From a virus, in the IMG/VR virus record IMGVR_UViG_3300034060_001790, positions 1-43,438 of that record: a stretch of 43,438 nt of DNA; one strand, given 5' to 3'. Both the position numbers and the translations under genes were made by a program. The number at the start of each line of letters is the position of its first letter. Within the stretch, counting starts at the first letter, position 1. The notes under the pieces are model-generated. The model saw nothing but the letters and a program-made list of their open reading frames with translations. It was not told the origin of the DNA and made no database searches. This document shows positions 1-33,643 of this stretch, piece after piece.

Positions 1-3000
1 GAACTTCAGGTTCTAATGGATCAAATGGAAGCTCAGGAACTTCGGGTTCTAATGGAAGCTCAGGTACTTCAGGTTCAAATGGATCAAACGGTTCTTCAGG
101 AACTTCAGGTTCAAACGGCTCTAATGGAAGCTCAGGTACTTCAGGTTCAAATGGATCAAACGGTTCTTCAGGAACTTCAGGTTCAAACGGCTCTAATGGT
201 AGCTCAGGTACGTCAGGCTCAAATGGATCTAATGGTAGCTCGGGAACTTCAGGTTCTTCTGGAACAAGAGGTACGTCAGGTACTTCCGGTACTAGTGGAA
301 CCTCAGGTTCTAATGGTAGCTCAGGAACTAGTGGAACCTCAGGTTCAAGCGGCTCAAATGGTTCTTCTGGAACTTCTGGAACATCTGGTTCTAATGGTAG
401 TTCAGGTACTTCTGGTACATCTGGCTCTAATGGATCAAATGGTTCTTCTGGTACTTCAGGTTCTAATGGATCAAACGGAAGCTCAGGTACATCAGGTTCT
501 AATGGTTCTTCTGGAACAAGCGGTAGCTTAGGAACTTCTGGAACATCAGGTTCAAGCGGCTCAAATGGTTCTTCTGGAACTTCTGGAACATCTGGTTCTA
601 ATGGTTCTTCTGGTACTTCTGGTTCAAATGGATCAAACGGAAGCTCAGGAACATCAGGTTCTAATGGATCGAGTGGAAGCTCAGGAACGTCAGGTTCTAA
701 TGGTTCTTCTGGAACAAGCGGTAGCTTAGGAACTTCTGGAACATCAGGTTCAAACGGCTCAAATGGTTCTTCTGGTACTTCTGGTTCAAATGGATCAAAT
801 GGTTCTTCTGGTACTTCTGGTTCAAATGGATCAAACGGAAGCTCAGGAACATCAGGTTCTAATGGATCGAGTGGAAGCTCAGGAACGTCAGGTTCTAATG
901 GATCAAGTGGAACTTCCGGTTCAAGTGGAACTTCTGGTTCTAATGGATCAAACGGAAGCTCAGGAACTTCAGGTTCAAATGGTTCTTCAGGAACTTCAGG
1001 TTCAAATGGCTCAAATGGTTCAAGTGGAACTTCAGGTACTTCAGGTTCAAATGGATCAAACGGTTCAAGCGGAACATCAGGTTCAAATGGATCTAATGGA
1101 TCAAGCGGAACATCCGGTACATCTGGTTCAAACGGATCAAATGGAAGCTCAGGAACTTCAGGTTCAAACGGCAGCTCTGGTACGTCAGGTACATCTGGTT
1201 CAAACGGATCAAATGGTTCTTCAGGTACTTCAGGCTCTAATGGATCTTCTGGAACTTCTGGTTCTAATGGCTCAAGCGGTACATCCGGCTCTAATGGTTC
1301 AAATGGTAGTTCAGGAACTTCAGGTTCTTCTGGAACAAGAGGTACTTCTGGTACTTCTGGTACTAGTGGAACTTCAGGAACATCAGGCTCAAACGGATCA
1401 AATGGTTCTTCTGGAACATCTGGAACTTCAGGTTCAAACGGCTCAAATGGAAGCTCTGGAACTAGTGGAACCTCAGGGTCTAATGGTTCATCTGGAACTT
1501 CTGGTTCTAATGGTTCAAGCGGTTCATCTGGTACTTCTGGAACAAGAGGTACTTCTGGAACTTCTGGTACTTCAGGTACTTCCGGTTCTAATGGTTCTTC
1601 TGGAACTTCTGGTACTTCCGGTTCTAATGGTTCTTCTGGAACAAGTGGTACGTCTGGTTCAAATGGATCAAATGGAAGCTCTGGTACCTCTGGTTCTAAT
1701 GGATCAAACGGAAGCTCAGGAACTTCAGGTTCTAATGGCTCAAGTGGAACATCTGGTTCAAACGGATCAAATGGAAGCTCTGGAACTTCTGGTACATCTG
1801 GTTCAAATGGCTCAAGCGGAAGCTCAGGAACTTCAGGCTCTAATGGAAGCTCAGGAACGTCGGGTTCAAACGGATCAAACGGTTCTTCAGGAACTTCTGG
1901 TTCAAGCGGTACATCCGGTTCTTCTGGCACAAGAGGTACTTCAGGTACTAGTGGTACCTCAGGTACATCAGGTTCAACTGGTACTTCTGGAACAAGCGGT
2001 ACTTCTGGTTCTAATGGATCAAATGGAAGCTCAGGAACTTCAGGTTCAAACGGTTCAAACGGGTCAAGCGGAACTTCAGGTTCTTCCGGCTTAACTGGTA
2101 GCTCAGGAACTAGTGGAACTTCCGGTTCTAATGGTTCTAGTGGTACATCAGGTTCAAACGGTTCTAATGGTTCTTCAGGAACGTCAGGGTCAAACGGTTC
2201 TAACGGTTCTTCAGGAACGTCAGGGTCAAACGGATCTAATGGTTCTTCTGGAACTTCAGGTTCTAACGGTAGCTCAGGAACATCTGGTTCAAATGGATCA
2301 AACGGTAGCTCAGGAACATCTGGTTCAAATGGCTCTAATGGTAGCTCAGGAACTTCAGGATCTTCAGGAACAAGAGGTACTTCAGGTACTTCTGGTACTA
2401 GTGGAACTTCAGGTTCAAACGGTTCATCTGGAACTTCAGGAACAAGCGGTTCAAACGGTTCAAGTGGAACTTCAGGTTCTAATGGATCAAATGGAAGCTC
2501 AGGAACTTCAGGTTCAAACGGTTCTTCTGGCACATCAGGTTCTAATGGTTCTTCTGGAACTTCAGGAACCAGAGGTACTTCTGGTACATCTGGAACAAGC
2601 GGAACTTCCGGTTCAAACGGATCAAACGGAAGTTCTGGTACATCAGGTTCTAATGGCTCAAATGGATCAAGCGGTACTTCTGGTTCTAATGGCTCAAATG
2701 GTAGTTCAGGAACTTCAGGTTCTAATGGATCAAATGGAAGCTCTGGTACCTCAGGGTCTAATGGTTCTAATGGTTCTTCTGGAACTAGTGGAACTTCAGG
2801 TTCTAATGGATCTTCTGGAACATCTGGTACTTCAGGTTCTAATGGCTCAAACGGTAGCTCTGGTACTTCCGGCTCAAATGGTTCTTCAGGAACATCTGGT
2901 TCAAATGGATCAAACGGTTCAAGTGGAACGTCAGGTTCTAATGGTTCTTCTGGAACTTCAGGAACAAGAGGTTCTTCTGGAACTTCGGGAACAAGCGGAA

Positions 3001-5867
3001 CATCAGGTTCAAATGGTTCTAACGGCTCAAGTGGTACCTCAGGTTCTAATGGATCAAATGGTTCTTCTGGAACTTCTGGTTCTAATGGATCAAATGGTTC
3101 TTCTGGAACTTCAGGTTCTAACGGTAGCTCAGGTACTTCCGGTTCTAACGGCTCAAGCGGAACCTCAGGTTCAAACGGCTCAAATGGTTCAAGTGGAACT
3201 TCAGGTTCAAACGGCTCAAATGGTAGCTCAGGAACATCTGGTTCAAACGGAAGCTCAGGAACTTCAGGTACTTCAGGTTCAAATGGTTCTAATGGCTCAA
3301 GTGGAACATCAGGTTCAAATGGTTCTTCAGGAACATCAGGTTCAAATGGATCAAACGGTTCAAGCGGTACTTCTGGTTCAAATGGTTCAAACGGTTCTAG
3401 TGGAACTTCAGGTACCTCAGGCTCTAACGGCTCAAATGGTAGCTCAGGAACATCCGGCTCAAATGGTTCTTCAGGAACTTCTGGAACAAGAGGTACTTCA
3501 GGTACTTCTGGTTCAAACGGTAGCTCAGGAACATCCGGCTCAAATGGTTCAAACGGTTCAAGCGGTACGTCTGGCTCAAACGGTTCTTCGGGAACTTCTG
3601 GTTCAAATGGTAGCTCAGGAACCTCTGGTTCAAACGGTTCAAGCGGTAGCTCAGGAACATCCGGCTCAAATGGTTCAAACGGTTCAAGCGGTACTTCTGG
3701 CTCAAATGGAAGCTCAGGTACTTCAGGTTCTAATGGTTCTAACGGAAGTTCTGGTACATCAGGTTCAAATGGCTCAAATGGATCTTCAGGTACATCAGGT
3801 TCAAATGGTTCTAACGGAAGTTCTGGTACATCAGGTTCAAATGGCTCTAACGGAAGTTCTGGTACATCAGGTTCTAATGGTTCTTCAGGAACTTCCGGCT
3901 CAAACGGCTCAAACGGCTCTAGTGGAACTTCTGGTTCAAATGGCAGTTCCGGTACTTCAGGAACACGTGGTACTTCTGGTACATCCGGTTCTAATGGAAG
4001 CTCAGGAACGTCCGGCACATCAGGCTCAACTGGAGCAAGTGGAGCAGCAATTAGTGACGGTTGGGATTGGGGTACTCCATTAGCCAGTACTAAAATTTAT
4101 AGTAATAATGGTAATTTAGATGCTGCAACTTCTCTATTAAACATAGCGGAAGTTTCATTAACTTCAACCAATTATAGTGGAGTGTATCCATCAATTGGTA
4201 CTGGCACACTAATTAAGACAAATGGTGGAATTGGTGGTCAAATTGTATATTATAGAACAACTGGTGTAGGTTTTGATACTGGAATATATTGGGAATTTCC
4301 AGTAACTTATGTTTCAGGTACACCTTGGACGCCATCTGCTGGCACTGATATTATTGTTGACATATCTGCTGCAGGTGTATCAGGCTCGTCTGGTACTTCA
4401 GGAACACGTGGTACTTCAGGTACTTCAGGCTCAAATGGTTCTTCTGGAACCTCAGGTTCTAATGGATCAAATGGAAGCTCGGGTACATCAGGTTCTAATG
4501 GTTCTTCTGGAACTTCAGGTTCTAACGGATCAAACGGTAGCTCTGGTTCTTCTGGAACACGAGGTACGTCAGGAACCTCTGGTACATCTGGTTCAAACGG
4601 TTCTTCTGGAACATCAGGTACTTCAGGTTCTAATGGCAGCTCAGGTACATCAGGAACTTCAGGATCAGCTGGTACTAGTGGTACAAGTTTTATATGGAAA
4701 GGTATTTGGGTTGGTGGTACTCTTTATGCGATTAATGATGTAATTTCATTTAACGGAAGTTCTTATATTTCTATAGTATCAAGTAATATAGGAAATAACC
4801 CGTCTACTAGTCCAGCGCAATGGACGCTAATGGCATCTGCTGGGTCAAACGGCTCATCAGGTACAAGTGGTACATCAGGCTCAAATGGTAGCTCTGGAAC
4901 TTCTGGTTCAAATGGCTCAAATGGAAGTTCTGGAACTTCAGGAACAAGAGGTACTTCTGGAACTTCTGGTTCAAATGGATCATCTGGTACTTCTGGTACA
5001 TCCGGTTCAAACGGTTCTTCTGGAACTTCTGGTTCTAATGGATCAAATGGCTCATCAGGTACAAGCGGTACATCCGGCTCAAATGGTAGCTCTGGAACAT
5101 CAGGTTCTAATGGTTCAAACGGAAGTTCTGGAACTTCTGGAACAAGAGGTACCTCAGGTACGTCTGGTTCTAATGGGTCTTCTGGAACATCAGGTTCTAA
5201 TGGCTCAAGTGGAACTTCTGGAACAAGCGGCGCTACTGGTGGAACTGGTTCTTCTGGAACTAGTGGAACAAGCGGAGTTTCTGGTGCATCAGGTACGGCT
5301 GGAACATCCGGAACAAGCGGTGGAACTGGTGGAACTGGTTCAAGCGGAACATCCGGAACTACTGGTTCTTCTGGAACTTCAGGCGGTACTACTGGAACTA
5401 TTACATCAAGTACAGTTGACCGAATAGCCTACTTCTCTGCAGCAACTACCATAGCTGCAACAAATATGCACTACGATGTTACAAACGGCAGACTATCTAT
5501 TGCTAATGGAACCGGTCCAACTTATCGATTAGAAGTAGGCGGCGATATTTATGCAACTGCTAATATTATAGCATACTCAGATAGATCAGTTAAAGATAAT
5601 GTGAAGACCATCACTGATGCTCTAGCTAAGGTAACATCAATGAGAGGAGTTACCTTCACCAGAAATGATCAAGAGGATAAGACTCGAGTTCATGCGGGTG
5701 TTATTGCACAGGAAATGGAAACAGTATTTCCGGAAGTTGTATTTGAAAATGAGAATGGCACCAAGGCAGTTGCCTATCCAGCACTTGTATCAGTCCTAAT
5801 TGAGGCAATCAAGCAGCAACAGCACCAAATTGATGACTTACGGGATCAAATTGAAAAATTATTATAA
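1..5867 (+). CDS. giant collagen-like tail fibre, S74 chaperone end (5' partial)
   Basis: The gene enters from upstream; the frame beginning at base 3 is open to the TAA at 5865-5867, giving about 1,954 residues here. Most of it is Gly-X-Y triplets (GTS, GSN, GSS, occasional GTR) with almost no proline. Two folded inserts interrupt the repeats: an unknown beta-rich one at residues about 1350-1457, and one at about 1563-1612 with the spacing of aromatic residues of a small chitin-binding-like (CBM5/12) module (IWKGIW, then ISFNGSSY, then AQW). The end, from the SDRSVKDN motif (Ser about residue 1859) through GVIAQEMETVFPE to a coiled-coil tail, matches the Peptidase_S74 intramolecular chaperone, known to trimerise phage fibres and cut itself off at the Ser-Asp step. 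Probable host-binding fibre. The neighbouring glycosyltransferases could modify its Ser/Thr residues (inference). Confidence 0.9.
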   Translation, partial: TSGSNGSNGSSGTSGSNGSSGTSGSNGSNGSSGTSGSNGSNGSSGTSGSNGSNGSSGTSGSNGSNGSSGTSGSNGSNGSSGTSGSSGTRGTSGTSGTSGTSGSNGSSGTSGTSGSSGSNGSSGTSGTSGSNGSSGTSGTSGSNGSNGSSGTSGSNGSNGSSGTSGSNGSSGTSGSLGTSGTSGSSGSNGSSGTSGTSGSNGSSGTSGSNGSNGSSGTSGSNGSSGSSGTSGSNGSSGTSGSLGTSGTSGSNGSNGSSGTSGSNGSNGSSGTSGSNGSNGSSGTSGSNGSSGSSGTSGSNGSSGTSGSSGTSGSNGSNGSSGTSGSNGSSGTSGSNGSNGSSGTSGTSGSNGSNGSSGTSGSNGSNGSSGTSGTSGSNGSNGSSGTSGSNGSSGTSGTSGSNGSNGSSGTSGSNGSSGTSGSNGSSGTSGSNGSNGSSGTSGSSGTRGTSGTSGTSGTSGTSGSNGSNGSSGTSGTSGSNGSNGSSGTSGTSGSNGSSGTSGSNGSSGSSGTSGTRGTSGTSGTSGTSGSNGSSGTSGTSGSNGSSGTSGTSGSNGSNGSSGTSGSNGSNGSSGTSGSNGSSGTSGSNGSNGSSGTSGTSGSNGSSGSSGTSGSNGSSGTSGSNGSNGSSGTSGSSGTSGSSGTRGTSGTSGTSGTSGSTGTSGTSGTSGSNGSNGSSGTSGSNGSNGSSGTSGSSGLTGSSGTSGTSGSNGSSGTSGSNGSNGSSGTSGSNGSNGSSGTSGSNGSNGSSGTSGSNGSSGTSGSNGSNGSSGTSGSNGSNGSSGTSGSSGTRGTSGTSGTSGTSGSNGSSGTSGTSGSNGSSGTSGSNGSNGSSGTSGSNGSSGTSGSNGSSGTSGTRGTSGTSGTSGTSGSNGSNGSSGTSGSNGSNGSSGTSGSNGSNGSSGTSGSNGSNGSSGTSGSNGSNGSSGTSGTSGSNGSSGTSGTSGSNGSNGSSGTSGSNGSSGTSGSNGSNGSSGTSGSNGSSGTSGTRGSSGTSGTSGTSGSNGSNGSSGTSGSNGSNGSSGTSGSNGSNGSSGTSGSNGSSGTSGSNGSSGTSGSNGSNGSSGTSGSNGSNGSSGTSGSNGSSGTSGTSGSNGSNGSSGTSGSNGSSGTSGSNGSNGSSGTSGSNGSNGSSGTSGTSGSNGSNGSSGTSGSNGSSGTSGTRGTSGTSGSNGSSGTSGSNGSNGSSGTSGSNGSSGTSGSNGSSGTSGSNGSSGSSGTSGSNGSNGSSGTSGSNGSSGTSGSNGSNGSSGTSGSNGSNGSSGTSGSNGSNGSSGTSGSNGSNGSSGTSGSNGSSGTSGSNGSNGSSGTSGSNGSSGTSGTRGTSGTSGSNGSSGTSGTSGSTGASGAAISDGWDWGTPLASTKIYSNNGNLDAATSLLNIAEVSLTSTNYSGVYPSIGTGTLIKTNGGIGGQIVYYRTTGVGFDTGIYWEFPVTYVSGTPWTPSAGTDIIVDISAAGVSGSSGTSGTRGTSGTSGSNGSSGTSGSNGSNGSSGTSGSNGSSGTSGSNGSNGSSGSSGTRGTSGTSGTSGSNGSSGTSGTSGSNGSSGTSGTSGSAGTSGTSFIWKGIWVGGTLYAINDVISFNGSSYISIVSSNIGNNPSTSPAQWTLMASAGSNGSSGTSGTSGSNGSSGTSGSNGSNGSSGTSGTRGTSGTSGSNGSSGTSGTSGSNGSSGTSGSNGSNGSSGTSGTSGSNGSSGTSGSNGSNGSSGTSGTRGTSGTSGSNGSSGTSGSNGSSGTSGTSGATGGTGSSGTSGTSGVSGASGTAGTSGTSGGTGGTGSSGTSGTTGSSGTSGGTTGTITSSTVDRIAYFSAATTIAATNMHYDVTNGRLSIANGTGPTYRLEVGGDIYATANIIAYSDRSVKDNVKTITDALAKVTSMRGVTFTRNDQEDKTRVHAGVIAQEMETVFPEVVFENENGTKAVAYPALVSVLIEAIKQQQHQIDDLRDQIEKLL
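3..4046 (+). repeat. Gly-X-Y coding repeat block 1
   Basis: About 1,350 codons of degenerate 9-nt units encoding GTS, GSN and GSS triplets. Third positions vary freely (tct, tca, agc, agt for Ser), so the protein repeat is kept while the DNA repeat is blurred. GTR triplets occur near 265, 1335, 1545, 1930, 2370, 2570, 2965, 3485 and 3965 and are usually followed by GTSGTSG. Confidence 0.95.
4374..4688 (+). repeat. Gly-X-Y coding repeat block 2
   Basis: Short continuation of the same GTS/GSN/GSS triplet repeat between the two folded inserts of the fibre. It contains two GTR triplets, near 4403 and 4558. Confidence 0.9.
4842..5400 (+). repeat. Gly-X-Y coding repeat block 3
   Basis: Last repeat block before the fibre's C-terminal domain. 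Toward its 3' end the triplets become more varied (GAT, GGT, GVS, GAS, GTA), as if older and less homogenised. Confidence 0.9.
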
Positions 5868-5870
5868 GTA

Positions 5871-6563
5871 ATGCCGATAGACGGAACACCAACTGGAGTA
5901 ATGGCGGTCGTTTGGGCGCCAGACGACAAATCTTCGATTGCTGCACTATTAACTCAACAGTCTGGGGCTTCTGCCAGTGTCGGGAATCAGATTTACCCAG
6001 ATAAGACGGGCGCTCCTGAGTTTAGATGGAAAATACTCAGTGGTACATATGCTGGTACTTATGACATCAACCGAAATGACCCACAAGGATTAAGCTATTG
6101 GGCTGCAGCCAACGCAGTTGCAGGTGCAATTGGATTTGACCAGTTTTATAATTATCGACACTGGACTGATGAGCACACATATGACGGCGAAGTTATGAAT
6201 AATTCTTCGTTTGACATAATGGTTGAATTAGTGATAAACGATGGAACCAGTGGTCCTTATACCTATTTTACTAATACCCCATTTAGTACTGGCCTCACGA
6301 GTATAAACGGTGGACCAGTTACATATTACTATCAGCACTTCATGCCAAATGCAGACTTTGAGCATACCATTAATTTAGACAATAGTGCACCATTCCCAGT
6401 AAACTTAGTGCAGCTTCGGCTAACTGACATTGATACTGGCTTTAATATTGCCGACTTTGTTGGTGGACCTCCAATATCGATACCTCCAGGCCCGATCTCG
6501 TTTTTCACCCCTGGATTACCATTTTTTAGAAGATATTCTATTACAATTGAAATTGCTCCATAA
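5871..6563 (+). CDS. unknown protein, probably fibre-associated
   Basis: 230 residues, starting 3 nt after the fibre stop codon, so very likely co-transcribed with it. No family recognised. The sequence is rich in Gly, Pro, aromatic and Asn residues with alternating beta-strand character, and has no signal peptide or membrane segment. A tryptophan- and tyrosine-rich stretch (residues about 80-105) and a Pro/Gly-rich loop near residue 205 (GGPPISIPPGP) are the most distinctive parts. Position suggests a fibre tip, an adaptor or a small structural protein. This is inference from the neighbourhood only. Confidence 0.7.
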   Translation: MPIDGTPTGVMAVVWAPDDKSSIAALLTQQSGASASVGNQIYPDKTGAPEFRWKILSGTYAGTYDINRNDPQGLSYWAAANAVAGAIGFDQFYNYRHWTDEHTYDGEVMNNSSFDIMVELVINDGTSGPYTYFTNTPFSTGLTSINGGPVTYYYQHFMPNADFEHTINLDNSAPFPVNLVQLRLTDIDTGFNIADFVGGPPISIPPGPISFFTPGLPFFRRYSITIEIAP

Positions 6564-6591: not shown

Positions 6592-6831
6592 ATGACTACT
6601 AATATTCAAAACTATTCAATACTCGGCAAAACTGCAACCAGTATTAAATTTATACCCATGACCTATGAATTAGGCGCAACCTCAGTTTCTGTGATTTATC
6701 AATTAATGGATAGCGGCAATGCAATTATCTGTAGTGGTGCAGTTCGGTTAACTGATATATCTGATTGGGGTACAAATGATAGTGTTATTGTTACCAAAGT
6801 CTTAACTGCCCTAGGCTTAACTGCTGCATAA
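6592..6831 (+). CDS. small unknown protein, probably structural
   Basis: 79 residues, no recognised family. Predicted mostly beta strand (alternating hydrophobic pattern in YELGATSVSVIYQLM), with no membrane segment. It follows the 5871 gene by 28 nt and is the last gene before the glycosylation cassette. There is no Shine-Dalgarno sequence; the ATG follows an A-rich leader as for most genes here. It could be a small fibre or baseplate accessory. Confidence 0.6.
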   Translation: MTTNIQNYSILGKTATSIKFIPMTYELGATSVSVIYQLMDSGNAIICSGAVRLTDISDWGTNDSVIVTKVLTALGLTAA

Positions 6832-6896: not shown

Positions 6897-9707
6897 ATGT
6901 CGATTAAAATTAAAGCGCACACCTCAATTATTGGGGAAACTGGATACAATTGTCATTCTAGAAATTTCTTTAAAGCCCTAAATTCTCTAGAAGATTTAAG
7001 AGTTGATGTCAGAAATTGGACAGTAGGTTCAACCTGGACGGGTTATAATAATGATGAACCTCATAATGATGAGTATTATATTGATACTGAGTTAAAAACA
7101 ATCCTAACTCAACAAACTTTACAGACCCCAAACCTTTCACAAGAGTTTCCACTATATCAAAACTATCCAAATCCTGGAAAACCTGATGTTCACATTGTCT
7201 TAAATGATGTTAATCATAAATATTTTGGTGATAAGTATGATGGCCCAAAAATTGCCTATAATGTTTGGGAAACTACTAAATATCCAGAAGATTTTTTTAA
7301 ACACTTACAAACCTTTGACCAAGTTTGGGTTCCAAGCAGCTGGCAAAAAGAGTGCACAATTGTCCAAGGAATTCGAGCCGATAAAGTAAAGGTTGTACCT
7401 GAGGGAGTTGATACCCAAATGTTTAAACCCATTTCTCGAGAGACCTCATTTCCAGAAGGTCGCCCATTTAGATTTGTTGTAGTTGGCCGCTGGGAATATC
7501 GCAAATCTACTAAAGAAATTATAAAAGCATTCATTGATACCTTTTCAGAAGATGAAAATGTTGAACTTATCCTAAATGTTGAAAATCCATTTGCAAATGA
7601 CGACTGTTCAAATACTCAAGAACGTCTTGCCAAATTTGGCTTAACTCATAAAGGCATTAAAATACTTACTCATTTAAGCAAAGCTGACTATGTCAACTTA
7701 TTACAAACGGCTGATGTATTTGTTTCTTGTGCTCGTAGTGAAGGTTGGAATCTTCCACTAATTGAGGCAATGGCCTGCGGTACCCCATCAATCTATTCTG
7801 ATTGGGGAGCTCAATTAGAATTTGCTGCAGGTAAAGGTTTACCAGTAGCAACCCATGGAGAAGTTCCAGCTGGTGTTGCAAATGACGAATCTTGGAATCC
7901 AAATGCTCCAGGTAATTTCGTTGAGCCAAACTTTGAAGATCTTAAGCTTAGACTTAGAGAAGTTTATGATAATTATGAAATTTATAAAAAATCCGCGCTA
8001 ATGGAATCAAAACAAATCCGAACCCAATTCACTTGGGAAAATGCAGCAAAAATCGCACAAGATCACATCCAGGACCTCATTCAACCTGAGGTAAATGAAT
8101 ACTCAACTGACTTTGCATGGGTGACCTGCGGTAACCTGGCCTATATGCCGATCATTCAGAAATTAGCTGAATCGCTATTGGAATTCTCAAACCGTAAACT
8201 TATTGTTTATGGAATTGACTGTGATGTTCCGTTTGACTATTTGCCAAATGTAATTGCCCGAAAATTAACAATTCCCTACTATTCAAACTATGATAAATGG
8301 TATTGGAAGCAATATGCCTGTCTTGCAGCCTTTGAAGAAAGTTTTGAAAATTTTGTTTGGTTGGATGGTGATATTATTGCAAACCATACAATCGATAAAT
8401 TATCAGAGCATTTTGCAAATATCGAAAACTATCCATTAGCTGATATTCATGTACAGGAAGATTTTATTGGATATTATACAAAACCTGACGGTTCAAGAGG
8501 TCAGCAATTATTTAATGAAAATTTATGCAAAGCCAAAGGAGTTAAGCGTCTTGCTACCAAAGCCCATATTTGCATGTACGTATACAATCGAAATTGCGAA
8601 TGGTGGTTTAATGAAATCTTAACAGTATATAAAGAAACTGATCTTGCGGACTATCCAAGTTTATTACAATGGAATGATGAAGGTATTGATAATTACCTAA
8701 GATGCAAATATGGTTATAATAGGTTTTTACCAATTTCAAATTTTGATGTTTCTGAATGGGACGGCGATTTACTTGGAACAACTGGCAAAGCAATGGAACA
8801 CTTTATTTCTTTTTGGAGAGATCAAGGCCCTAAGAATTTTGGAAAAGTATACGGCTGGCAATTTATCCCAAAGAATAAAGACCAAATTCTATACTTTCAT
8901 GGAAATAAAAATCTAGGCTTTGCTCAAATCATGATTGACCATATTAAAGCTCAAAGAGACCAAAATTTCCATGATACTGAATATTTCTTTGTTGCTAAGG
9001 ACGAAATTAAAAATTTAGGTTCAATTAAACAAGTACAAGGTGGTACAATGGATATTGCCTATAAATACGGATGGGATTATGCAATTTATCATGAAATTTA
9101 TAACTTAACTGATTATGAACATCCACACCGCTCAGAAAATCCAGTTGTTAAAATCCAACCAGGAGATGTAGTGGTTGATCTTGGTGGAAATATTGGAATC
9201 TTTACTCGGTATGCATATCATATGGGAGCAAGTAAAATTGTAACCTTTGAACCTGATCGTAGGTATTTTGAGATCCTAAAACAAAATGCGCCAGCAAATG
9301 CCGTCCTATTTAATGCAGCAATTGGAGATCAATTAGGAACCTTAACCTTAACTGAAAGTTCTCACTTAGGTGGCTCTAACTTATGGCATCAAAAAGATCC
9401 AACTGTTACTCAATACGACGTTAATCTATATACCCTAGACTATATTTTAGACAATGGTTTAATTGACCGAATTGACTTCTTAAAGGTAGATATTGAAGGT
9501 TCTGAAATTATTGCACTAAAAGGCATTAGTGATGCTAACTTAGCTAAGATTCGAAATGTTGCAGTTGAATATCATCATGAACACCTTAATTTTAATGAAG
9601 AATTACGTGATGAATTTATTGTCAGATTTAACAGATTAGGTTTTAATTCATACTTACTATTTTGCGGCCCTAATAATGCACTACAATTAATTTATTTTTG
9701 GAAATAA
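6897..9707 (+). CDS. three-domain glycosyltransferase / glycosyltransferase / FkbM methyltransferase
   Basis: 936 residues. Residues about 1-395 form a GT-B glycosyltransferase of the GT4 type: RPFRFVVVGRW opens the C-terminal half and the EX7E motif is at E282 and E290 in EGWNLPLIEAMACG. Residues about 400-720 look like a GT-A nucleotide-sugar transferase with a DxD-type site at LDGDII (D490, D492). Residues about 755-936 are an FkbM-type SAM methyltransferase (VVDLGGNIGIF, then FEPD, then FLKVDIEGSE). Such a protein could add two sugars and methylate the product. No signal peptide, so cytoplasmic. It opens the cassette downstream of the fibre genes and is followed after 1 nt by another methyltransferase gene. 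Acceptor and sugars cannot be read from the sequence. Confidence 0.85.
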   Translation: MSIKIKAHTSIIGETGYNCHSRNFFKALNSLEDLRVDVRNWTVGSTWTGYNNDEPHNDEYYIDTELKTILTQQTLQTPNLSQEFPLYQNYPNPGKPDVHIVLNDVNHKYFGDKYDGPKIAYNVWETTKYPEDFFKHLQTFDQVWVPSSWQKECTIVQGIRADKVKVVPEGVDTQMFKPISRETSFPEGRPFRFVVVGRWEYRKSTKEIIKAFIDTFSEDENVELILNVENPFANDDCSNTQERLAKFGLTHKGIKILTHLSKADYVNLLQTADVFVSCARSEGWNLPLIEAMACGTPSIYSDWGAQLEFAAGKGLPVATHGEVPAGVANDESWNPNAPGNFVEPNFEDLKLRLREVYDNYEIYKKSALMESKQIRTQFTWENAAKIAQDHIQDLIQPEVNEYSTDFAWVTCGNLAYMPIIQKLAESLLEFSNRKLIVYGIDCDVPFDYLPNVIARKLTIPYYSNYDKWYWKQYACLAAFEESFENFVWLDGDIIANHTIDKLSEHFANIENYPLADIHVQEDFIGYYTKPDGSRGQQLFNENLCKAKGVKRLATKAHICMYVYNRNCEWWFNEILTVYKETDLADYPSLLQWNDEGIDNYLRCKYGYNRFLPISNFDVSEWDGDLLGTTGKAMEHFISFWRDQGPKNFGKVYGWQFIPKNKDQILYFHGNKNLGFAQIMIDHIKAQRDQNFHDTEYFFVAKDEIKNLGSIKQVQGGTMDIAYKYGWDYAIYHEIYNLTDYEHPHRSENPVVKIQPGDVVVDLGGNIGIFTRYAYHMGASKIVTFEPDRRYFEILKQNAPANAVLFNAAIGDQLGTLTLTESSHLGGSNLWHQKDPTVTQYDVNLYTLDYILDNGLIDRIDFLKVDIEGSEIIALKGISDANLAKIRNVAVEYHHEHLNFNEELRDEFIVRFNRLGFNSYLLFCGPNNALQLIYFWK

Positions 9708-9708
9708 T

Positions 9709-10374
9709 ATGAGATCACTAAATACAATTGCCCTTTCTAAAGGCACTGACAAATCTTCTGAAATTCACAACTATTGTGTAAAATACGAGAAGTGGTTACC
9801 ATTTAACCAATTAGAGCCTTTAAAAATTCTTGAAATTGGGGTATTGCATGGAGAGTCTCTTTCTACTTGGAGAGAATACTATCCAAATGCAACAATTATT
9901 GGCATTGATATTGAACCTTCATGCAAACAATACGAAAATCCAGATAAAAAGGTTTTTGTAGAAATTGGGTCTCAAGATGATGCTAATTTTTTAAAATGGG
10001 TTGCCCAAAAATGGGGACCATTTGATATGGTACTTGATGATGGGTCTCACATTAACCGTCATGTAATTACCTCATTTAATCATTTAATTGACCACGTAAA
10101 ACCGGAAGGAGTATATGTAATTGAAGATACTTGCACGTCGTATTGGGAAGATTACGAAGGCGGTTTTAAACACCCAGGTTCCTCTATTGAATTTACAAAA
10201 AATCTAGTAGATGATATTAATTTTAATGGGCAAATGCAAGAAGAATTTTGGAACGTGCATGCTAGAAGAGAAGACTTCTTAACTAAACAGACAAAAGAAA
10301 AAGGTTTAACAATTCGCACTGATATTGAATCAGTAAATTTCCTAAATGGAATAACAATAATAACAAAAAGATAA
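9709..10374 (+). CDS. class I SAM-dependent methyltransferase, TylE/CalE-like
   Basis: 221 residues. The N-terminal SKGTDKSSEIHNY segment, the SAM-binding loop ILEIGVLHGESL, GIDIEP and the metal-site-like LDDGSH followed by YVIEDTCTSYW are typical of the methyltransferases related to macrocin/demethylmacrocin O-methyltransferases, which methylate sugar hydroxyls. The ATG lies 1 nt after the previous stop codon and the next gene follows after 6 nt, so the three form one operon. Likely role: O-methylation of a sugar made or transferred by the flanking enzymes (inference from family and context). Confidence 0.8.
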   Translation: MRSLNTIALSKGTDKSSEIHNYCVKYEKWLPFNQLEPLKILEIGVLHGESLSTWREYYPNATIIGIDIEPSCKQYENPDKKVFVEIGSQDDANFLKWVAQKWGPFDMVLDDGSHINRHVITSFNHLIDHVKPEGVYVIEDTCTSYWEDYEGGFKHPGSSIEFTKNLVDDINFNGQMQEEFWNVHARREDFLTKQTKEKGLTIRTDIESVNFLNGITIITKR

Positions 10375-10380
10375 GTAAAA

Positions 10381-13113
10381 ATGGCACATCCTCAACAGCA
10401 AGAATTTTGTAAAAAAATGAGTGGTATTTTCCCAAAATATTTCACTGGCAAAAAAGTTTTAGATATTGGATCATTGGACATAAATGGCAATAACCGATTT
10501 ATGCTAACCAACTGTAATTATATTGGATTAGACGTGGGAGAAGGCCAAAATGTTGATGTTATCCAAGTTGCTCATTTATATGATGCACCAGACGAGCAGT
10601 TTGACTTGATAATTTCAACTGAAGTATTTGAACATGATATGTTCTATGAAATGTCATTACAAAACATTATTCGAATGCTAAAACCTGGTGGAGCATTTAT
10701 ATTTACATGTGCTTCAATTGGAAGACCTGAACATGGAACCAGAAAGTCAGATGGAAGTTGGGCAGCTCCATTGCTTGCAAATATTTCAGAAGAATGGTCT
10801 GATTATTATAAGAACTTAACCGAAGAAGATATTCATAAAGTAAAAGGTTTTGACGAAGCTTTTCCAGATGGAGTTTTTGAATATAATTCAAACCCAGGCG
10901 ATCTATATTTCTTTGGAGTTAAAGGTGGAATTGCAAATGACATAAAATACTCAGTAGATAATAGACCTTCAATAATTAGGCCGAATGAATATCCTGATGA
11001 TATTTTTGTTGTTGATACTTGGCCAAATACTCCAGAAAAAGAATCTGACCTAATTGAGTGTATTAAAAAACTTAGAGAATTTTCAGGAATTCCAATCTTA
11101 TTGGTTTCGCATTATGCAATTAAACCGGAAATTCAAAAATTAGTTGACTATTATTTGTATGATAAAGAAAATCCACTGCTATTAAATTCTGAATTTGAAG
11201 AATATAAAGTAGGCAGCGGTAGATGGTGTACATTTGGAAAAACTAGAGTTGATACAGAAATGGAATATCACCATGACTATGCAATTTGGAGATCAATGAC
11301 ACATGCTTTTAATTTCTGTAAATATCTAGGAAAGAAGATGATTCACTTTATGGAATATGATAATCTACTTGATACCTTTCAATATCGCCAAGCCTTTTTA
11401 GAAAGAGCTCATCAGCATGATGCCGTAATTTATGAATATCATGAAGGCTCGGTAACTGATACTCACCTAGCTAAATTTATGGCAACCTTTATTTTCTCAA
11501 TTAAAACTGAGGTTGCCCTAAATATTATAAATGAAGTAAAAACAAAAAAGGATTACTTTATGGATCGCCCAAATGGTTGGCAATTAGAAAGAGTATTTTT
11601 ACACTATTTAGAAAAACACGCTAAGGATATTTGGGTAACTAATTATATTGCAAATTCAAATGAATTAAATACACAAGCTGTTTGGAATAGAGATGGTATC
11701 CTAAGAGACGATGCTAAATTTCAAATTTATACAGCAGCTGACGATTTTAATAATTTATATTTACATCTAGTTTCAGGATTTCACGATGAACCTGCAACCA
11801 AAGATTACCTACTTGAAATTAAGTATAATGGAACAGTGCAGTTTACTACTCTTAAAAAGGGAGACTTTCTACTTATTAAATTAGGCGAATATCGTAAAGG
11901 TTATACAGTAACTGTTAATTATTTAGGTAAATGCGCATTCACTCAATTTTTAAATGATGACTTCCAAAATTTTGCAAAAATGAATCATGTAACAATTGAT
12001 GGAGTTCAGGCACTACCTACCGTAAATCATAATTTAGTAGATGGACCGTTTGTTGAATTAAAAACTACAAGTCCAATGAAATATCAAGTAGACTTTATTG
12101 ATAATGAAACTGACAAATTAGTTTATTCAACAAAATTAAGCGGCGGAGCGTGGGCAAAAAGTTCAATCAAATATTTTAAAGATTGGAAAATTAAAGTTAC
12201 GGACCAGAACGGAAATCCAGTAATAATATTTAATACTGACCTAAAAGGCAAGCGTGTCTATATTCCACTAGAGTCAAAAGCACTAGGCGATACTTTAGCA
12301 TGGTTTCCGTATGTTGAAGAATTTAGAAAGAAGCACGATTGTATTATAATCTGTTCAACTTTTTGGAATCAACTATTTAAAGATACTTATCCAAATATTG
12401 AATTAATTGAACCTGGCCAAATGGTAACTAATTTACATGCAATGTACAGAATTGGATGGTTCCATAATGGAGATAATATTGATCGTGAAAAAAATCCTAG
12501 AGATTTTAAATTAGGTCCATTACAAAGAACTGCAACCGATATTTTAGGTTTGGAATATAAAGAGGTTAAACCAATTATTAATTATCCAACTGGTCCAATA
12601 GTTAAGAAAAAAGTAGGCCTTGGAATTCATAGTACTGCTCAAGCAAAATATTGGAATAATCCAACCGGCTGGCAAGAAGTTACAGATTGGTTAATTGCAA
12701 ATGGTTATGAACCTGTAATATTATCTAGAGAAGAAGACGGTTATATGGGAAACCGCAATCCGGTTGGAGCTGCTAAACTTGAAGCTGGTACAATTGACCG
12801 AGTAATTACTGAATTAACTGAATGCGCAGCATTTATTGGAATAAGTAGTGGATTAACTTGGCTAGCTTGGGTAACAAATACTCCAAGTATTCAAATCTCC
12901 GGTTTTACTGAACCTTATAATGAACCAGATGGCGATATTATTAAATTAGCTGCACCAACTGGAGCTTGTTCAGGTTGCGCAAACCGATTAAGGCTTAATG
13001 CTGGTGATTGGAATTGGTGCCCAGATCAAAAAGGTACACCTCGTCAATTCGAATGTTCAAAATTAATCACTGCTGATCAGGTAATTGAAAAGTTAAAGAC
13101 AATTCTAATATAG
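10381..13113 (+). CDS. methyltransferase / glycosyltransferase / TibC-type O-heptosyltransferase fusion
   Basis: 910 residues in at least three parts. Residues about 1-175: SAM methyltransferase (VLDIGSLDINGN, GLDVG, then FDLIISTEVFEHD and MLKPGGAF). Residues about 190-430: GT-A-like domain (FVVDTWPNTPEKESDL, LLVSHYAIKPEI) resembling sugar transferases of bacterial surface-glycan and phage cassettes. Residues about 480-600: a beta-rich linker. Residues about 620-910: glycosyltransferase resembling the autotransporter strand-loop-strand O-heptosyltransferases (TibC/Aah, GT9-like): SKALGDTLAWFPYVEEF, CSTFWN, IGWF, ATDILGL, then the four-cysteine iron finger C863-x2-C866-x13-C880-x11-C892. The family transfers heptose to Ser/Thr of repeat-containing autotransporters. 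In this phage a Ser/Thr-rich fibre is the obvious candidate acceptor (inference). Confidence 0.85.
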   Translation: MAHPQQQEFCKKMSGIFPKYFTGKKVLDIGSLDINGNNRFMLTNCNYIGLDVGEGQNVDVIQVAHLYDAPDEQFDLIISTEVFEHDMFYEMSLQNIIRMLKPGGAFIFTCASIGRPEHGTRKSDGSWAAPLLANISEEWSDYYKNLTEEDIHKVKGFDEAFPDGVFEYNSNPGDLYFFGVKGGIANDIKYSVDNRPSIIRPNEYPDDIFVVDTWPNTPEKESDLIECIKKLREFSGIPILLVSHYAIKPEIQKLVDYYLYDKENPLLLNSEFEEYKVGSGRWCTFGKTRVDTEMEYHHDYAIWRSMTHAFNFCKYLGKKMIHFMEYDNLLDTFQYRQAFLERAHQHDAVIYEYHEGSVTDTHLAKFMATFIFSIKTEVALNIINEVKTKKDYFMDRPNGWQLERVFLHYLEKHAKDIWVTNYIANSNELNTQAVWNRDGILRDDAKFQIYTAADDFNNLYLHLVSGFHDEPATKDYLLEIKYNGTVQFTTLKKGDFLLIKLGEYRKGYTVTVNYLGKCAFTQFLNDDFQNFAKMNHVTIDGVQALPTVNHNLVDGPFVELKTTSPMKYQVDFIDNETDKLVYSTKLSGGAWAKSSIKYFKDWKIKVTDQNGNPVIIFNTDLKGKRVYIPLESKALGDTLAWFPYVEEFRKKHDCIIICSTFWNQLFKDTYPNIELIEPGQMVTNLHAMYRIGWFHNGDNIDREKNPRDFKLGPLQRTATDILGLEYKEVKPIINYPTGPIVKKKVGLGIHSTAQAKYWNNPTGWQEVTDWLIANGYEPVILSREEDGYMGNRNPVGAAKLEAGTIDRVITELTECAAFIGISSGLTWLAWVTNTPSIQISGFTEPYNEPDGDIIKLAAPTGACSGCANRLRLNAGDWNWCPDQKGTPRQFECSKLITADQVIEKLKTILI

Positions 13114-21590: not shown

Positions 21591-22217
21591 ATGAGCGCAT
21601 ACGATCTACTGAATAAGCAATTAAATGACGAAATGCAAAGCCTTGCTGAACTTATTAAGTCAGGCAAATATACAGAAAAGGATCGAAACCGCTTAGCCTC
21701 AATCATGTATCCAAAATTAAAATATTTTATTTGGAAATTTTTTAATGATTCGGATGAAACTGACGAGGTATTGCATAATACCCTGTTTAAAATATTTAAA
21801 GGAATTGCATCATATAGTGATAATTATCGGTTTACTACTTGGATTTATACAATTGCAAAGAATGAGGCACTACTTCATCAACATAAATTAAAGCAGCAAT
21901 ATGCAACAAGTTTAGATAATTTAACCAAACCATTAAATATACCAGATGACTCGGCTTATACTTTTGAAAAGGAAGTATATTTTGATGATTTATATAATAT
22001 GACCAGGTTTGAAATTAATGCGCTGCCTGAATGTATTGAAAAATCGATATTAATTGATAAAGAATTACATCATATGCGAGGTAATGAGATTGCTGAGAAA
22101 TATGAAATGAATTTGAATACGGTTAAAACCAAAATCAGAAAAGCTCGTAAAATGTTAAAAGAGGCCGTGTTGACTAAAAATCCTCACATGGTTGATAAAC
22201 TAGGAGAATATTTTTAA
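21591..22217 (+). CDS. ECF-type RNA polymerase sigma factor
   Basis: 208 residues with the two-domain layout of ECF (group 4) sigma factors. Region 2 spans about residues 40-105: YPKLKYFIWKFF, DETDEVLHNTLFKIF and then FTTWIYTIAKNEAL, the -10 recognition helix. Region 4 spans about 145-200: LPECIEKSILI, then a helix-turn-helix IAEKYEMNLNTVKTKIRKARKML. It would direct host RNA polymerase to a subset of promoters. Lying within the late operon it is a candidate counterpart of T4 gp55, and the ATAAATAAY boxes in this window are candidate targets (inference). It starts 9 nt after the PhoH-like stop codon. Confidence 0.85.
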   Translation: MSAYDLLNKQLNDEMQSLAELIKSGKYTEKDRNRLASIMYPKLKYFIWKFFNDSDETDEVLHNTLFKIFKGIASYSDNYRFTTWIYTIAKNEALLHQHKLKQQYATSLDNLTKPLNIPDDSAYTFEKEVYFDDLYNMTRFEINALPECIEKSILIDKELHHMRGNEIAEKYEMNLNTVKTKIRKARKMLKEAVLTKNPHMVDKLGEYF

Positions 22218-32830: not shown

Positions 32831-33643
32831 ATGGCAGACGTATTATGTTCAATTGAAGAGGCTAGACAAAATGGAACCCTTCAGGTTTTCCAAAAGAAAA
32901 CCAAATATCACGATTATCAATTTCTAGTTAGGTCTGAGGAAGAGATTAAATTTAATGTCTCTCAAAATATTTCAACTAAACCAACTGGTGGTGAATATTT
33001 TAAACCTCTATTCATACCGCATTATGCGCAAAATGGAGGTCCACTAAACCTGGAAGATCTAAACCATGAAGATACATGGTTAGACGCTGGCGGCCATATC
33101 GGTATCTTTGCAACCCGTTTATTAACTCAATTTCCAAAAGTAAAGAAAGTCTATTCATACGAACCTTTCCATAATAATGTGGAGTTCCTAGAACAAAATG
33201 TTCAAATGAATGGCGTTCAAGATCGTTGTGAAATTATTGAAAAAGCAATTGTTGCAGATGATTCATCTGAAGTAGAATTTTACCTATCACAAGACTCTGG
33301 CAAGCATAGCGTGCATCACATTAGAGGTCGTCAGGTTACAACTGTCCCAGCTGAGAATATAAACACTATTATCAAAGAAAAGGGTATCACAGCCATCAAG
33401 ATGGACATTGAAGGGTTAGAGTATGATATGATTAAAGCCTTAAATCAAGAGAGCCTAGACCAAATTCGTCTCTTTATTGTTGAATACCATTTTCATTATA
33501 GTTGGTTATTGGAAAATCGATCAGCTAAATTTACTGAAATCCTTGATATTTTTAGAGCAAACTTTGGGCAATTATTTGTTAATCCACGTACAATAAACGG
33601 AAAGCATTTTATTACGCATTTTGCCGGTTTTAAAAATACTTAA
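32831..33643 (+). CDS. FkbM-family SAM methyltransferase
   Basis: 270 residues. SAM loop TWLDAGGHIGIFATRL (about residue 88-103), acidic ribose-binding YSYEPF, then KAIVADDSS and the FkbM hallmark AIKMDIEGLEYDMIKAL. FkbM enzymes O-methylate sugars or polyketides; stand-alone relative of the C-terminal domain of the 936-residue protein at 6897. It has its own AGTATAAT box and is followed by a glycosyltransferase gene, so it probably acts on a transferred sugar. Confidence 0.85.
   Translation: MADVLCSIEEARQNGTLQVFQKKTKYHDYQFLVRSEEEIKFNVSQNISTKPTGGEYFKPLFIPHYAQNGGPLNLEDLNHEDTWLDAGGHIGIFATRLLTQFPKVKKVYSYEPFHNNVEFLEQNVQMNGVQDRCEIIEKAIVADDSSEVEFYLSQDSGKHSVHHIRGRQVTTVPAENINTIIKEKGITAIKMDIEGLEYDMIKALNQESLDQIRLFIVEYHFHYSWLLENRSAKFTEILDIFRANFGQLFVNPRTINGKHFITHFAGFKNT

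Follow-up and report, generated by a model that had tools for sequence, protein, structure and literature searches.

The 910 amino acid (aa) protein encoded at positions 10381–13113 (+) of IMG/VR virus record IMGVR_UViG_3300034060_001790 carries a TibC-type O-glycosyltransferase domain belonging to a separate sister family, an activity predicted from sequence and modelled structure. The whole 43.4-kb record was analysed and is referred to here as the window. In phages and in bacteria this enzyme class was found tightly coupled to proteins with serine/threonine (Ser/Thr)-rich Gly-X-Y repeats; this coupling is new. Together with the homology, the fold and the active-site and iron-finger residues, it is the directly found basis for the reading preferred here. 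From these data we infer, as the probable explanation, that the 910-aa protein glycosylates Ser and Thr in the Gly-X-Y shaft of the phage's own fibre, with heptose as the probable sugar, and that GT4 glycosyltransferase and methyltransferase domains extend and cap the glycan, which would also be methylated.

An earlier note on the window had assigned about 290 C-terminal residues of this protein to an O-heptosyltransferase of the type that modifies autotransporters, citing the motif SKALGDTLAWFPYVEEF and a cysteine finger (C863-x2-C866-x13-C880-x11-C892). Both are present in the protein as described. The C-terminal part is indeed TibC-like but longer than stated (aa 548–908, ∼361 residues), as it takes in an N-terminal beta-rich domain like that of TibC. 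When searched against the autotransporter O-heptosyltransferase family, as the note had advised, this part matched NCBIfam TIGR04414 with 267.4 bits (E 1.8e-79), above the curated equivalog cut-off of 200 bits, and the TibC structure in the Protein Data Bank (PDB 4rap) with E 2.2e-50; the Pfam TibC_1st and Glyco_transf_9 matches in the window protein were below gathering score. Structure prediction, also advised, gave a confident TibC-like model (pLDDT 93.8), which aligned with 4rap at Z 40.5 and a root mean square deviation of 2.1 over 354 residues of model 1–363. The next-best structural families after TibC reached Z 18–20.

The catalytic Asp and the four iron-finger Cys were kept in 46 of 46 aligned sequences, and the donor-site residues Thr226, Lys230 and Trp305 of TibC correspond to T752, K756 and W827 of the window protein. 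In an alignment of 67 rows, comprising 19 classic enzymes and 48 members of the clade paired with Gly-X-Y proteins (the pairing clade, described below), the equivalents of Asp110, Lys230, Trp305 and the four Cys were kept throughout, and that of Thr226 in 48/48 pairing-clade rows. The enzyme was often part of a longer open reading frame (ORF), exceeding 600 aa in 40 of the 52 loci used out of 81 phage loci. Seven enzyme ORFs were scanned for further domains: three (L062, L074 and L078) additionally had GT4-like as well as FkbM methyltransferase domains, a GT4-like domain was present in L082, a weak glycosyltransferase match in L031 and a methyltransferase in the window protein, while no further domain was detected in the scan of L039.

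The proposed acceptor lies upstream in the window. As the earlier note had read it, the fibre stop codon (5867) is separated from the enzyme ORF by two small ORFs of 230 and 79 aa and by two cassette genes encoding 936 and 221 aa, and the fibre contains hundreds of GTS, GSN and GSS triplets (200, 177 and 137, respectively). Altogether 545 Gly-X-Y triplets occur in three runs of 449, 35 and 61, at about 9–4049, 4374–4688 and 4842–5390; the fibre has 884 Ser/Thr residues and no Pro. Its last 561 aa matched Collagen (PF01391) with 130.9 bits and Peptidase_S74 with 57.7 bits. For Pro-free Gly-X-Y repeats a polyglycine-II type fold is possible besides a triple helix.

To assess the coupling in phage records, IMG/VR was scanned for DNA encoding GTSGTSG, with GPQGPQG as a control scan; the counts from these two sets hold among the matches listed. 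The Ser/Thr set consisted of 50 of at least 120 listed stretches. Of these, 28 were chosen by rule (at least 20 triplets, Ser/Thr share at least 0.6, Pro share at most 0.05, contig at least 25 kb) and 22 of like composition and any length were added (L184, L198–L203 and L205 qualified but were left out). The control set consisted of 50 listed stretches with at least 20 triplets and a Ser/Thr share below 0.4, the first 24 from contigs of at least 25 kb, and was mostly Pro-containing; qualifying stretches further down the list were left out. The enzyme was found in 23/50 Ser/Thr-rich records (22 above the cut-off) and in 1/50 control records (Fisher 1.4e-7), the sole enzyme-bearing control record also having the Ser/Thr pattern, 356 times. 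The difference held in records of at least 25 kb (22/36 against 1/36, p 7e-8) and of at least 60 kb (17/19 against 1/11, p 2e-5); the records are related, and the p-values therefore overstate independence. Conversely, enzyme-selected records of at least 60 kb, several of them near-duplicates, contained a four-triplet Ser/Thr pattern in 21/24. The three without it were G016, G037 and G039, and the stretch around the enzyme of G016 (L039) still contained 50 triplets in looser Ser/Thr-rich runs.

All 81 phage loci were grouped into 36 clusters. At least 10 triplets were found within the fetched stretch in 24/36 clusters, and in 17/23 where both flanks were at least 9 kb. In the 17 clusters with a record of at least 60 kb, repeats fell inside the enzyme stretch in 14, against 3.2 expected for random gene placement. 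The fibre lay upstream of the enzyme, downstream, or downstream on the other strand, depending on the cluster, which suggests that the link between enzyme and fibre survives rearrangement.

Terminase relatives of the window phage were compared using 26 of 78 terminase loci, mostly on long contigs, and ten control records. The Ser/Thr pattern was present in 13/16 enzyme-bearing and 0/10 enzyme-lacking records, or 9/11 and 0/10 after removal of five records previously known to bear the enzyme. The enzyme-bearing records without the pattern were G140 and G003, in both of which the enzyme is near a contig end, and G142, where the match was below the cut-off. Four enzyme-lacking records (G144, G145, G146 and G151) have the same tail genes within 20 kb, and their fibres keep the S74 end at 45–50% identity and are devoid of the repeats; no ORF listed in these stretches had a Gly-X-Y run of more than five triplets. 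The cassette proteins gave no tblastn match at 1e-4 to the four stretches, and several other genes occupy the cassette space. These data indicate that the shaft repeats and the cassette are missing together at one locus. A row of similar-looking 220–620-aa proteins, which start like 'GLIFAFDTGDxxNSYxGxPTTN', was observed between the S74 fibre and the tail tube in enzyme-lacking sister phages (L480–L483).

The pairing was also found in bacterial chromosomes. The closest non-phage-like bacterial enzymes (45–48% identity; five loci from Methylobacter, Methylococcaceae and a Polaromonas metagenome-assembled genome) adjoin small proteins with Gly-Thr-Ser/Thr/Ala repeats and, by eye, a signal peptide. 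In 301 Methylococcales genomes, enzymes above the cut-off fell into a group of nine loci with 303–327 bits and a classic group with 653–663 bits (seven hits, six fetched loci); full-match TIGR04414 scores of phage and methanotroph members together were about 193–380 bits. A Ser/Thr Gly-X-Y run of at least six triplets was present within 1.5 kb of 8/9 lower-scoring loci and 0/6 classic loci. Four of the nine had been found previously and the five new ones were paired in 4/5; the ninth locus has a Ser-rich protein whose N-terminus is of the same type. Of the neighbours that were typed, two large proteins near classic enzymes were AIDA-type and two neighbours of lower-scoring enzymes were Collagen matches. 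As far as read, the methanotroph pairs sit among housekeeping-like genes. The arrangement at L412–L416 and L437–L445 (Methylococcales and one Polaromonas genome) is a two-gene unit of the enzyme and a small, apparently secreted protein, with Gly-Thr-Ser type repeats in most cases.

A tree of 68 sequences was constructed, leaving out four loci that repeat others. Classic enzymes separated (19 rows, support 100/100), and no Ser/Thr Gly-X-Y run of at least six triplets was found in their fetched stretches, some of which have short flanks. The phage and methanotroph-type members all grouped together in a clade with support 99/96 (48 rows), from which L417 was excluded on a long branch. Inside this pairing clade lies the methanotroph-type group, which has support 100/100 (10 rows); its exact place is weakly supported. 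By sequence, the pairing clade and the autotransporter heptosyltransferases are sister families, the former being tied to proteins with Ser/Thr Gly-X-Y repeats. The enzyme class given in the earlier note is well supported, whereas the label of autotransporter-modifying type should be changed, as the clade occurs with Gly-X-Y repeats and has no adenine-contacting Arg. A 924-aa enzyme (L411) is also encoded on a contig of 254 kb that was binned as an uncultured Bacteroidetes genome; by eye its tail genes are like those of the window, and the contig is probably phage DNA that was placed in a bacterial bin.

Homology, fold and genomic coupling support well the suggestion, made before, that the phage modifies its own fibre. 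TibC modifies repetitive acceptors in the cytoplasm, before they are exported. The fibre is made and assembled in the compartment where TibC-type enzymes act, so the enzyme could glycosylate the shaft. The sugar, most likely heptose from ADP-heptose or another nucleotide-heptose, would be attached to many Ser and Thr residues of the collagen-like shaft in the host cytoplasm during infection, before virion assembly, and the shaft would be glycosylated before or during trimerisation. The linked GT4 and methyltransferase domains would then extend and cap the glycan. The fusion of GT4-like and FkbM domains to the enzyme points to extension and methylation of the first sugar, and a methylated oligosaccharide, as proposed earlier, is plausible from the domain content. 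Four methyltransferase domains were confirmed (the C-terminus of the 936-aa protein, the 221-aa ORF, the N-terminus of the 910-aa protein and the ORF at 32831). Of the five possible glycosyltransferase domains counted in the earlier note, the GT4 domain of the 936-aa ORF and the TibC-like domain are solid, and a third, in the middle part of the 910-aa protein, is a low-confidence GT-A-like candidate (mean pLDDT 57; Foldseek hits to nucleotidyltransferase and GT-A folds, E 3.9e-5 at best); the rest were not established. Proline stabilises animal collagen, and sugars on Thr stabilise some collagens. The glycan would most likely serve to stiffen and shield the proline-free shaft, stability or evasion having been the purposes suggested by the earlier note. 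Tentatively, the pairing clade may be an unrecognised prokaryotic and phage O-glycosyltransferase family dedicated to Gly-(Ser/Thr)-(Ser/Thr/Asn) collagen-like proteins, with a changed donor-base pocket, in which the many glycans of each fibre take, in a proline-free triple helix, the role that hydroxyproline has in animals, and shaft and cassette are exchanged between phages as a unit.

Several observations weigh against the preferred reading. Among the matches listed, 14/36 Ser/Thr Gly-X-Y records of at least 25 kb had no enzyme, and two of at least 60 kb (G049 and G060) gave no enzyme match; the listed repeats of G060 are close to the contig end. Six clusters with both flanks of at least 9 kb (L032, L040, L060, L061, L077 and L079) had no Ser/Thr-rich run there. 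Records of the L032, L040 and L061 clusters carry Ser/Thr-rich repeats elsewhere; in the L079 cluster two records were tested (G037 and G039) and had no Ser/Thr pattern. Kinship among the ten terminase relatives without the enzyme is close; most form one group with 68–69% terminase identity, and the ten may represent a single event. Such kinship, in counts uncorrected for the tree, would fit a reading in which the enzyme and the fibre type are simply long-standing traits of a single phage clade, the statistics reflecting shared ancestry only. Such an explanation appears very unlikely, as fibre position and strand vary between clusters, cassette and shaft repeats are missing jointly at one locus, and the pairing recurs in bacterial chromosomes. 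It also appears unlikely, if somewhat less so, that the target is a glycan of the host surface, or a virion protein other than the fibre, and that receptor-related genes merely cluster near fibres. Pelagimyophage glycosyltransferases and rfaE near tail fibres have been read as changing the host O-chain (PMC7029224), and genome protection or cell-wall change has been suggested for phage glycosyltransferases (PMC10202952). However, the tie is specific to Ser/Thr-rich Gly-X-Y proteins (23/50 against 1/50 among the matches listed), which argues for the fibre over a host-surface target, the same clade adjoins small Gly-X-Y proteins in methanotroph chromosomes, and TibC itself modifies proteins (PMC4358343).

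The remaining points of this kind concern the sugar. The place of TibC Arg286 is occupied by Arg in 19/19 classic and 0/48 pairing-clade rows, the latter having Val (28), Thr (7), Ile (7), Leu (3), Ala (2) or Met (1), and residue 750 is His in 46/48 pairing-clade rows and Gln in 19/19 classic rows. Arg286 of TibC contacts the adenine of ADP-heptose, and activity was abolished or largely diminished in R286A (PMC4358343); the pairing clade may therefore bind the donor differently or use another nucleotide sugar. HldE-like genes were rejected as a general companion (nucleotidyltransferase in 12/75 enzyme-bearing and 3/38 other records, p 0.38), and a gmhA-like gene was found in 1/50 records. It is accordingly conceivable, though the less favoured reading, that the Gly-X-Y fibre is glycosylated with a non-heptose sugar and that the loss of Arg marks a changed nucleotide-sugar donor. 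Against this, the Trp305, Lys230 and Thr226 equivalents are kept in 48/48 pairing-clade rows, and HldE-like genes downstream of the enzyme in two phage clusters favour heptose, although all these matches were below equivalog cut-offs. Directly 3′ of the enzyme in L061 are a 127-aa rfaE domain II-like nucleotidyltransferase (98.5 bits, against 60.5 for the glycerol-3-phosphate cytidylyltransferase model) and a 251-aa rfaE domain I-like kinase (111 bits), with close copies of both in the same places in L063 and L064 of the same cluster. In L046 the gene after the enzyme is weakly cupin-like and the next encodes an rfaE domain I-like kinase (126 bits); a fibre region lies a short way further on, the stretch containing 764 Ser/Thr-rich triplets; an HldE-like kinase is also present in L047 of that cluster. 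Heptose is thus, on sequence grounds, the likely sugar of the preferred reading. The 128-aa weakly cupin-like gene (L046:11067–11453) is perhaps a sugar isomerase of the same pathway. In Microcystis phage Mel-JY01, a 'cytidylyltransferase like' gene close to the enzyme was considered as HldE and discarded; it matched nicotinamide mononucleotide adenylyltransferases weakly.

The enzyme resembles the bacterial autotransporter heptosyltransferases TibC and AAH (TIGR04414; PDB 4RAP, 4RB4) in its N-terminal beta-domain and GT-B catalytic core, and in the equivalents of Asp110, Thr226, Lys230, Trp305 and the four iron-finger Cys. It differs in the replacement of Arg286, in the Gly-X-Y partner protein, in its frequent location within longer ORFs and in its occurrence in phages; within the window, the typed large neighbour is a collagen-like fibre and not an autotransporter. 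The TibC ring holds six substrates (PMC4358343). The lipopolysaccharide heptosyltransferases WaaC and WaaF (GT9) share the GT-B fold (Z about 18), but the match is far weaker than to TibC and the alignments begin past the N-terminal beta-domain (model residue 77 on). The exosporium protein BclA of Bacillus similarly has a collagen-like region with oligosaccharides that include a methylated sugar, but is a spore protein and not a phage fibre, and involves different enzymes. Repeats of BclA contain Pro, and its glycan is linked to Thr. In glycosylated mycobacteriophage virions, phage-encoded glycosyltransferases act on structural proteins, with other enzyme families and other targets. Mimivirus L230, a collagen hydroxylase-glucosyltransferase, is likewise a virus enzyme for the virus's own collagen-like protein (PMC9614988); unlike the predicted phage activity, it puts glucose on hydroxylysine, in a eukaryotic virus (PMC9614988). 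No paper on phage heptosyltransferases, glycosyltransferases or O-glycosylation that shows the pairing with collagen-like fibres was found, as judged by title and abstract, with most subscription papers and bioRxiv outside reach.

These data name both an enzyme and its likely acceptor for the glycosylation of proteins in tailed phages, and offer a possible reason why some very long phage fibres consist almost only of Gly, Ser, Thr and Asn. How a proline-free collagen-like shaft holds together becomes testable, and a family known from bacterial adhesins gains a sister branch that differs from it in the likely acceptor and in the donor pocket. The locations of the features are given in Table 1.

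Table 1. Locations of the enzyme domains and residues, the fibre and the associated genes in the window.
Feature	Position	Strand	Basis
Collagen-like fibre gene, 5′ end cut by window start; proposed acceptor	3..5867	+	
Peptidase_S74 (endosialidase-type intramolecular chaperone) at fibre end	5577..5741	+	Pfam
230-aa ORF beside fibre	5871..6563	+	No Pfam, NCBIfam or PHROG match
79-aa ORF	6592..6831	+	
936-aa protein, GT4 glycosyltransferase (N-terminal) and FkbM methyltransferase (C-terminal)	6897..9707	+	PF00534, PF05050, phrog_2170
221-aa methyltransferase	9709..10374	+	PF13578, phrog_21658
S-adenosylmethionine (SAM) methyltransferase domain, N-terminal, aa 1–181 of 910-aa protein	10381..10923	+	phrog_32762 (E 5.3e-49), PF13489
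Middle part of 910-aa protein, weak GT-A-like fold and beta-rich stretch	10930..12020	+	
TibC-like O-glycosyltransferase domain (predicted), aa 548–910	12022..13110	+	TIGR04414, TibC match, model
Catalytic Asp637 (TibC Asp110)	12289..12291	+	Asp in 48/48 pairing-clade and 19/19 classic rows
Val808 at place of TibC Arg286 (adenine contact)	12802..12804	+	Alignment
Iron finger Cys863, 866, 880 and 892 (TibC Cys339, 342, 358 and 370)	12967..13056	+	
FkbM methyltransferase, apart from cassette	32831..33643	+	PF05050

The gene order of the window (fibre, cassette, tail-tube-like gene, sheath stabiliser, baseplate wedge, terminase and PhoH) is, by sequence, of T4-like myovirus type. The top-listed named terminase relatives were Sphingomonas phage PAU, Tenacibaculum phages and Flavobacterium phage MaF61 (29–33% identity), and a cyanophage terminase scored close to these; the host is uncertain, perhaps Bacteroidota. 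No match was obtained when 25 kb was compared with a phage collection by megablast, and the group comprised 327 related stretches in IMG/VR, some near-identical. A 208-aa ORF beside PhoH (21591–22217) resembles an extracytoplasmic function-type sigma factor by eye. Near the enzyme of L061, a 2203-aa fibre-like protein (L061:179–6790) has a match to carbohydrate-binding module CBM5/12 and an intein splicing match slightly below the Pfam cut-off. A 1339-aa open frame with VPEVPELPFEP-like repeats crosses the repeat region of the window on the minus strand (2–4018) and is probably a by-product of the repeat codons.

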